This document shows, one piece after another, positions 37,518 through 44,472 of a stretch of DNA of 57,205 nucleotides. Both the position numbers and the translations under genes were made by a program. How positions within the stretch are numbered: position 1 is the first letter of the stretch; the number at the start of each line of letters is the position of its first letter. The notes beneath the pieces were generated by a model that had not been told where the DNA came from, did not search any database, and worked only from the letters and a program-made list of their open reading frames with translations. This DNA is from Myxococcota bacterium (GTDB lineage: Bacteria; Myxococcota_C; UBA6777): contig JAKLKB010000058.1 of the NCBI GenBank assembly GCA_023150835.1, positions 1 through 57,205 of the forward strand, given 5' to 3'.

Positions 37518-40500
37518 ATGGAGTCCACAACTGAGCTCAAGAACGGACATCCCTCCGAATCCTCGTTGGAAGGTGTCTTGCGTCGTTATCACAACGTCGA
37601 CGAATACCGTGATCTGCATTGGGAAGGCAGCTTTGAGGAATACCTCGCGCTTGTCCGGCAAAACCCCAAGGTCATCCGCAATGCGTACCAGCGCGTGTAC
37701 GACATGATCATGGAACACGGCACCGAAGACTATATGGACAGCAAAAAGCGGATGGTGCGCTACCTCTTTTTTAGCGCCAAACAATTTGGGGGCGACGATG
37801 CCGTGTTCGGCCTCGATATCCCGCTGATGCGCCTTGTCAACTTTTTTAAATCGGCAGCGATGGGATACGGAACCGAGCGGCGGGTGCTGTTGTTGCACGG
37901 CCCCGTTGGATCGGCGAAAAGTACGATCGCACGCCTGCTCAAACGCGGATTGGAAGCGTATTCGCGAACGCCGCAAGGCGCGCTGTATACGTATGAATGG
38001 CACATCCCCCGCGAAGATCAAAAAGATCTGTTTCCCTCAGGCATGGAGATCATGCCAAGTCCGATGCACGAAGAACCGTTGACTTTGATCCCCAAAGAGA
38101 TCCGCGCTCAAGTGTTGCGCGACCTTGGGATCGAAGTCGATCTGCGGATCAACCTCAAACAAGATCCAAGCCCGCCTTGTCGCTATGTCTTCAACGAGCT
38201 GATGGAGCGCTACCACGGGGATCTGTCCAAAGTCTTTTCGCATATCCGGGTCAAGCGCTTGTTGTTGAGCGAGCAAGACCGCGTCGGTATCGGTACGTTT
38301 CAGCCCAAAGATGAGAAAAACCAAGATTCGACCGAACTCACGGGCGATATCAACTACCGCAAGATCGCGATCTATGGCTCGGACTCGGACCCACGGGCCT
38401 TTAACTTTGACGGTGAATTCAACATCGCAAACCGAGGCATCATCGAGTTTATCGAGATGCTCAAGCTGGATGTTGCGTTTTTGTACGATCTGCTCGGTGC
38501 GTCGCAAGAGCATCGCATCAAGCCCAAAAAGTTTGCGCAAACCGACATCGATCTGGTGATCATCGGGCACTCTGTGGCGGGAGAAGAACCGATCCCTTAT
38601 CGGTGGGAGGGTTTGATCCGTTGGGCCACGCTCGAACAACTGCACGAGCGCTTTTCCTCCGATCCGACCGGCCTCGAAGTGCTGGCTTATAACTTCGACA
38701 AACAGCACGTGGCTTGGACTCCCGTCAAAAGCGTGTTTCGCCACCGCTTCACAGGGAAGATGCTGACCACCGCCCAAACATGGGGCAGCGTCGAAACCAC
38801 CCCCAACCACTCGATTTACAACCGCCAAGGCCAGTGTTTCTACCCCGAAGAAAACATCCAAGAAAGCCGTCACGAGATGATGGCGCTGCGTGGCTTTGAT
38901 CAAGCCTTTGGTGGACCTTCTCTGGAGGTCGTGGATATCACACAAGGGATCGAGGGACTGCTCGATCACACCGCGATGGAGACCTCCACAGGCGAAGCCC
39001 TCTCTAAGCCTTGCCCTGCGGATTATGTTCGTCTCAACCATTCCTCCGACGCCACCGCGATCCGCTCTCACTACGATCTTCGACAAGACGCCGATGCAAG
39101 CGCGATGTGCGCTCTGTTGACGGCGTTGATCGGATACGCCACAGAAAGCCACCTCGATGGCAGCGACAGTTTCTCCCTTGGTTCCGAGACCTTCGCCAAG
39201 ATCGCAGCCTTTCATTGTGGCGAACGCTCCGCCTTCAAGCGTCTGCCTGATTTCCTGTTCAACCTTCCTCATGCCTTCCTACAGCACGCCTTCGATGAGC
39301 TGATGCGCGTCGAGGGAGCGTGCAAACGGTCGGCTGCTGTTCAACAAACGGCCTCCGATACACACAACGAGCGCTCCTTCAGCACGCTTTCGCCGATGTT
39401 GGCGGCGCAGGTCGGTACGTTGGCGACTCTTTTGGGGCTGGATTACAGCATCTCCCGCACAGAAGGCGAACAGCGCTCTCCGATGTACTGCGTACATTTG
39501 GCTTCGGGCGAAGGCAAACAAGGCGGGCGTCGGGCCGATGTCGAAACTCGCGTGACGCCGCGCAGCGTTTCGGATATCTGGGTCTATGATATCGAGTGCA
39601 TCGGTCTTCACAACTTTGTCTGTGGTGTGGGCAATATCGTTTGTCATAACACCAACGAGGCAGAATACAAAAAGCTCCTGAACAACGAGTTTATGGAGGC
39701 TTTGCGTGACCGTACGATCAAGATCGATATCCCTTACGTCACACGTTTGAGCGAAGAAGTGCGGATCTATCGGCGCGACTTTAACAAGCACAAGATCCGT
39801 GGCAAAGACATCGCCCCCCACACGCTAGAGATGGCTGCGATGTGGGCGGTGTTGACGCGCCTCGAAGATCCCAAAAAAGCCAATCTGTCGCTGTTGCAGA
39901 AGATGAAGTTGTATGACGGAAAGAGTTTGCCCGGGTACACCGAAGACAACGTCAAAGAGCTTCGCAAAGACGCAACCCGCGAAGGGATGGAAGGGATCTC
40001 GCCGCGCTATGTCCAAGACAAGATCTCCAACACCCTTGTTTCCGAGAAAAATCAAGGATCGATCAATCCCTTTATGGTGCTCAATGAGATATCGAGCGGT
40101 CTGCGCAGCCACTCCTTGATCACCAACGACGAACAACGCAAGCGTTATCTTGAGATGCTCGATGTGGTCAAACAAGAGTACGAAGATGTGGTCAAAAACG
40201 AGGTGCAACGGGCGATATCGGCAGACGAAGAAGCCATCGCCAAGCTGTGCGCCAACTACATCGACAATGTCAAGGCATACACGCAGCGCGAGCGCGTGAA
40301 AAACCCCTACACAGGCCAATACGAGGAACCCGACGAGCGTTTGATGCGTTCGATCGAAGAAAAGATCGATGTGGCCCCCGCACGCAAAGATGACTTCCGC
40401 CGAGAGATCATGAACTACATCGGCGCGCTGGCAGTCGAAGGAAAGATCTTTGATTACCGCACCAACGAGCGTTTGCACAAAGCGTTGGAGTTGAAGCTGT

Positions 40501-44472: not shown

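Follow-up and report, generated by a model that had tools for sequence, protein, structure and literature searches.

The locus described here raises the question of why the genes of two partner proteins in one stress operon, PrkA and SpoVR, are each interrupted in frame by what looks like an intein, and whether splicing ties the two proteins together. An intein is a protein insert that excises itself and acts as a parasitic mobile element. The original prediction, made from the window (the whole stretch of 57,205 nucleotides analysed here, from a Myxococcota bacterium), suggested that splicing could gate the whole module. The features concerned are the following.

36777..37277, forward strand: ribosome hibernation factor (HPF/RaiA family, PF02482), the upstream gene, giving a stress context
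37518..40691, forward strand: prkA, AAA+ serine protein kinase PrkA/YeaG (PF08298 and PF06798), a single open frame of 1057 aa interrupted by an intein
38571..39650, forward strand: PrkA intein at site a (GH/TNE), 360 aa, residues 352-711 of PrkA
40786..41994, forward strand: yeaH (DUF444), 402 aa, with NF003711 and PF04285 across the protein
42100..44472, forward strand: spoVR, SpoVR/YcgB family (PF04293 in two pieces and PF24755), a single open frame of 790 aa interrupted by an intein
43000..43791, forward strand: SpoVR intein at site a (NEGWA/SYWH), 264 aa, residues 301-564 of SpoVR
44506..45996, forward strand: FHA and sigma-54 activator regulator (PF00158, PF00498, PF02954), the downstream gene, giving a regulatory context

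The gap between prkA and spoVR (40691 to 42100) is 1.4 kb, not the 2.4 kb first given, and the inteins themselves lie 3.3 kb apart. The yeaH gene between them had correctly been called intein-free, as its family model covers the protein (P0002) from end to end with no insert; translation may in fact begin at a codon that lies after the first GTG. The genome of the window (G000) contains at least four further inteins, in DnaB, DnaE (DNA polymerase III alpha), GyrB and UDP-glucose 6-dehydrogenase (C40:20819-21280, C229:17873-19117, C43:9366-9593 and C235:123402-123854; L001-L005), the one in UDP-glucose 6-dehydrogenase being a mini-intein placed before CFPKD. Two inteins in adjacent genes are thus less surprising here than they would be in an intein-poor genome. 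A second, divergent PrkA-like AAA protein is encoded at G000:C159:2888-3667 (a 777-aa frame) and is also found in G001, G002 and G003, members of the window's family.

Both inserts carry the features of class 1 inteins. They interrupt their hosts in frame at highly conserved motifs, as had been proposed, with the junctions VIIGH/S...CHN/TNEAE in PrkA and NEGWA/C...NHN/SYWHS in SpoVR; taking out aa 352-711 leaves a PrkA extein of 697 aa, and taking out aa 301-564 leaves a SpoVR extein of 526 aa. The splicing set consists of Ser1, the block B His of TTPNH, the CHN end and Thr+1 in PrkA, and of Cys1, the block B His of GSNNH, the NHN end and Ser+1 in SpoVR. The block F/G pattern is present in both (VYDISV..HRYAAQGLINHN in the SpoVR intein), and Ser in block B of the SpoVR intein, where Thr is usual, counts against an ordinary class 1 reading. 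The pattern of class 3 (no nucleophile at position 1, WCT, block F4 Cys) was not found, Ser1 or Cys1 being present and Asp standing at VYD. In agreement with the original prediction, the intein profiles PF14890, TIGR01443 and TIGR01445 match both inserts, with modest scores: TIGR01443 is at or above its cut-off for both, PF14890 is at cut-off for the SpoVR insert alone, and the profiles fit the SpoVR insert, which is also matched by PF14528 (LAGLIDADG_3), better than the PrkA insert. AlphaFold models for which homologues were drawn from other genomes (pLDDT 82 for PrkA and 87 for SpoVR) have inteins and intein endonucleases as their top PDB matches, the best being 2cw7 for the PrkA insert (E 7.5e-14) and 7qsu for the SpoVR insert (8.2e-13), which points to a HINT fold. 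Homologues with an empty site were found for both inteins in most genomes surveyed, and the solved, intein-less PrkA 9xip aligns with both sides of the insert and is continuous across the insertion site. Taken together, the open frames, profile matches, predicted folds and empty-site homologues confirm that both inserts are real class 1 inteins.

An assembly artefact was ruled out, since the independently assembled sister species G001 carries both inteins at identical sites; the prkA-spoVR region is free of N bases. It was likewise ruled out that the two inteins are copies of each other, as their shared similarity is weak and only LAGLIDADG-level.

Judging by sequence order, the PrkA insertion site would fall on the strand that follows Walker B, where sensor 1 is expected. 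In E. coli YeaG, AAA+ activity is required for function (PMC4664914). As the insert lies inside this essential domain, unspliced PrkA should be inactive, and the gene would be of use only if splicing occurs.

The endonuclease parts of both inteins look degenerate. PrkA inteins at the same site in other genomes mostly measure 393-400 aa and contain both of the LAGLIDADG-like motifs, YATEGH and MRTDGS, and LAGLIDADG_3 matches 19 of the 22 aligned PrkA inteins, the window copy being without a match. In the window and G001 about 40 aa are missing after the first motif, and the second reads RVEGA or RTEGS. The window copy of the SpoVR intein has its first motif deleted and a degenerate second one (ALFESQS); the ~400-aa SpoVR inteins of G003 and G004, from the family of the window, and of G130 (Chloroflexales) keep LGYLIGDGHIS and LRAYFDSDG-type motifs. 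Two intact motifs with catalytic acidic residues, as in an active LAGLIDADG endonuclease, are found in neither window intein, and from the missing motifs we infer that endonuclease activity was lost in both.

The splicing parts have fared differently, at least in PrkA. Between the window and G001 the PrkA exteins are 99% identical (dN/dS 0.016) and identity across the whole PrkA intein is 84%, with dN/dS of 0.07 in the N-terminal splicing part, 0.41 in the middle and 0.00 in the last 30 codons; the C-terminal splicing block is protein-identical despite a dS of 0.34. We read this as strong purifying selection on the splicing ends while the endonuclease remnant drifts, which suggests selection to splice. 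For the SpoVR intein the same comparison gave no dN/dS contrast between splicing and middle regions (a uniform 0.12-0.17, the SpoVR extein having 0.047). Both window inteins are probably splicing-competent, immobile relics. Splicing is not guaranteed in every PrkA intein relative, given the replaced penultimate His in some of them. It is swapped for Lys or Ser in L159, L160, L162, L167 and L171, and these AKN, ASN, LSN and CKN ends are of interest for splicing chemistry. In Thermus sp. JCM 17653 (L170) the PrkA intein frame is broken by a frameshift, which is either a sequencing error or decay.

We consider it very probable that two class 1 inteins with decayed endonucleases splice themselves out constitutively at this locus; we infer that both splice, that splicing is not rate-limiting and that the endonucleases are dead. 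The inteins would have entered by means of LAGLIDADG homing endonucleases targeting conserved codons, in PrkA those of the GH/TNE strand in the AAA+ domain and in SpoVR those of the NEGWA/YWH motif. Inteins favour conserved sites, where homing is aided and deletion hindered (PMC2814812). In the genus of the window both endonucleases would have decayed later, and splicing would have been retained because precise removal is the sole way in which the host proteins keep working. To judge from the residues and fold, excision from PrkA and SpoVR would take place after translation and would most likely be self-catalysed. In SpoVR, Cys1 would undergo an N-S acyl shift, with transfer to Ser+1; in PrkA, Ser1 would undergo an N-O shift, with transfer to Thr+1. 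Asn cyclisation would follow in both, and once the peptide bond between the exteins is restored, PrkA and SpoVR would be intact. We explain the pairing best if prkA and spoVR, two conserved stress genes, are each a hot-spot for mobile inteins within one set of lineages, here in a genome rich in inteins; a shared regulatory role explains it less well.

Occupied sites are spread over many bacteria. A scan of the PrkA intein alignment against a collection of 84,980 species genomes found PrkA site a occupied at 32 loci, in Chloroflexota, Thermus, Planctomycetota, Acidobacteria, Latescibacterota, Myxococcota and one MAG labelled Proteobacteria, and all PrkA intein loci with flanks examined have the GH/TNE site. 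A MAG labelled Gracilibacteria has a Chloroflexota-like PrkA intein, and this label is probably wrong. Two extra PrkA sites are used in Chloroflexota, SDPK/SQD in G087 (L129), G194 (L130) and G162 (L131), and EMLK/CDEKF in G178 (L132) and again in G162, which has both in one protein; PrkA has three intein sites in total. Of the 193 genomes surveyed, 30 have an intein at SpoVR site a, among them members of the window's family, Chloroflexales, Planctomycetota and an Acidobacteria MAG. A second SpoVR site, VYGH/CDFFKNN, holds a ~160-aa mini-intein in the planctomycete G548 (L191), which has a PrkA intein as well. The dozens of inteins found at the two sites a speak for ordinary class 1 inteins. 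Phage was rejected as a carrier, as viral contigs contained no PrkA intein relative and only weak SpoVR-intein-like matches. One such contig, IMGVR_UViG_3300023179_008242 (L324), encodes a segment that shares 36% identity with the last 160 residues of the SpoVR intein.

Whether the two inteins go together was assessed in 193 genomes scored for both genes, for which a SpoVR extein tree was built. Both inteins are present in 15 genomes, the PrkA site a intein only in 18, the SpoVR intein only in 15 and neither in 145. The pair recurs in distant bacteria and is not unique to the window. Co-occurrence gave a Fisher odds ratio of 8 (p 4e-6) and, when stratified by phylum (Chloroflexota and Planctomycetota), a Mantel-Haenszel value of 5.7 (p 0.001), figures that treat related genomes as independent in a sample deliberately enriched in PrkA-positive genomes. 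On the SpoVR extein tree the states of the two inteins change no fewer than 15 and 23 times, so both have often been gained and lost. Phylogenetically independent pairs changed in the same direction 3.5 times and in opposite directions 1.0 times on average (median p 0.6), which is not significant, and a partial Mantel test between the two inteins beyond the exteins gave r 0.31 (p 0.08). In the family of the window, PrkA of G003 and G004 lacks an intein while their SpoVR has one with conserved endonuclease motifs, and SpoVR of G002 has none. The pair tends to share lineages; coupling was not demonstrated.

The first alternative is that a single transfer of prkA-yeaH-spoVR, or co-conversion during homing, brought in both inteins, which we regard as improbable. 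It would suit the short distance between them, as well as their trees: the PrkA intein from the window has as its sister the one from G553, a MAG with both inteins (support 99/98), and the SpoVR inteins of the two stand in one 12-member clade (100/100) along with those of G003, G004, G550, an Acidobacteria MAG and some planctomycetes, that of G553 being the nearest by distance among the other both-intein genera. However, G003 and G004 belong to this clade with no intein in PrkA, and the PrkA exteins of the window, G001, G003, G004, G550 (Polyangiaceae) and G553 already form one clade (98/98), so that the kinship of the PrkA inteins can be explained by inheritance without co-transfer. Nor did the analysis show yeaH and the exteins to have been exchanged recently. 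In the SpoVR intein tree a clade of the four family members was neither recovered nor rejected (AU p 0.35). The sequence-based history is compatible with inheritance in a Myxococcota-like lineage with losses, or with repeated exchange. In an early tree the window PrkA intein stood beside Oscillochloris, which had implied that the two inteins had separate histories; once G553 was included, this reading no longer held.

The gate suggested at the outset would have both inteins splice slowly or only on a signal (redox, metal or temperature), so that PrkA and SpoVR are activated together. It is possible, but we found no support for it and think it most unlikely. The partnership of the two proteins in one operon would fit it, as would the raw co-occurrence, in which kinship is ignored, and mycobacterial DnaB inteins are reported to show stress-responsive splicing (PMC6195587, PMC8557812, PMC7360933). 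In the C-terminal splicing blocks of the PrkA intein family, Cys343, which is non-catalytic, is invariant, and Cys351 and Cys358 are nearly so; along the chain they lie close to the catalytic His and Asn, and the nucleophile of this intein is Ser1. These cysteines, a possible correlate, are the sole positive hint of conditional splicing, and they concern the PrkA intein rather than the pair; a comparable set of extra conserved Cys is not present in the SpoVR intein. Furthermore, just one intein is found in 33 of the 48 carrier genomes, each occurring alone about as often as paired, members with the SpoVR intein only exist in the window's own family, at least four more inteins sit in unrelated proteins of the window's genome, and neither the independent pairs nor the partial Mantel test favours a gate. 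It is also very doubtful that redox-sensitive PrkA-intein cysteines and a slow SpoVR intein would keep PrkA-YeaH-SpoVR inactive until stress releases both, although such a coupled switch, if true, would account for the pair recurring in several phyla. That the inserts do not splice, leaving dead genes or products that act as fusion proteins, would agree with the degeneration of the endonucleases and the modest profile scores, but is hardly credible given that every splicing residue is intact, the PrkA C-terminal block is conserved and the exteins are under strong purifying selection.

Under the preferred reading of constitutive splicing at two invasion hot-spots, a widely conserved stress operon would be an intein hot-spot over at least seven bacterial groups. 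Public PrkA and SpoVR annotations in intein-bearing lineages may be mis-modelled owing to the inserts. The recurrent pair and the PrkA-intein cysteines make conditional splicing cheaply testable in bacteria that are in culture, for example Thermus or Herpetosiphon for the PrkA intein and Chloroflexus for the SpoVR intein. Intein insertion in conserved genes is of an already known kind; PrkA as an intein host with three sites and its recurrent pair with SpoVR appear unreported. The literature searched, 5.4 million papers that take in a minority of the subscription journals, contained no paper on the pair, in line with the original prediction, none linking an intein with SpoVR and no relevant one for an intein and PrkA.

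Among known systems, the SpoVR intein of Chloroflexus (G188), which we take to be the InBase entry 'Cau SpoVR', resembles that of the window in its NEGWA/SYWH site, Cys1, HN/Ser+1 ends and loss of most of the endonuclease. It differs in being ~41% identical and in that PrkA of the same genome has no intein. The best sequence-level neighbours of the SpoVR intein are bacterial inteins of the DnaB/GyrA type (NF005852, NF038098), which share its splicing blocks and LAGLIDADG_3 architecture but differ in host protein and insertion site and have low identity to it. The PrkA intein is comparable with those of the AAA+ ATPases RadA, MCM, RFC and DnaB, which sit at conserved nucleotide-site motifs and likewise lie in a conserved AAA+ strand; those hosts, however, are replication or repair proteins, whereas PrkA is a stress protein. 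Several intein sites per protein are known from haloarchaeal MCM (PMC10643990) and RFC (PMC2814812), a property that PrkA shares. Finally, the DnaB inteins of Mycobacterium smegmatis are described as oxidative stress sensors (PMC6195587). As with PrkA and SpoVR, two inteins are found there in one functional module, but both reside in one protein and their response has been demonstrated, whereas the PrkA and SpoVR inteins are divided between two proteins and are known from sequence.
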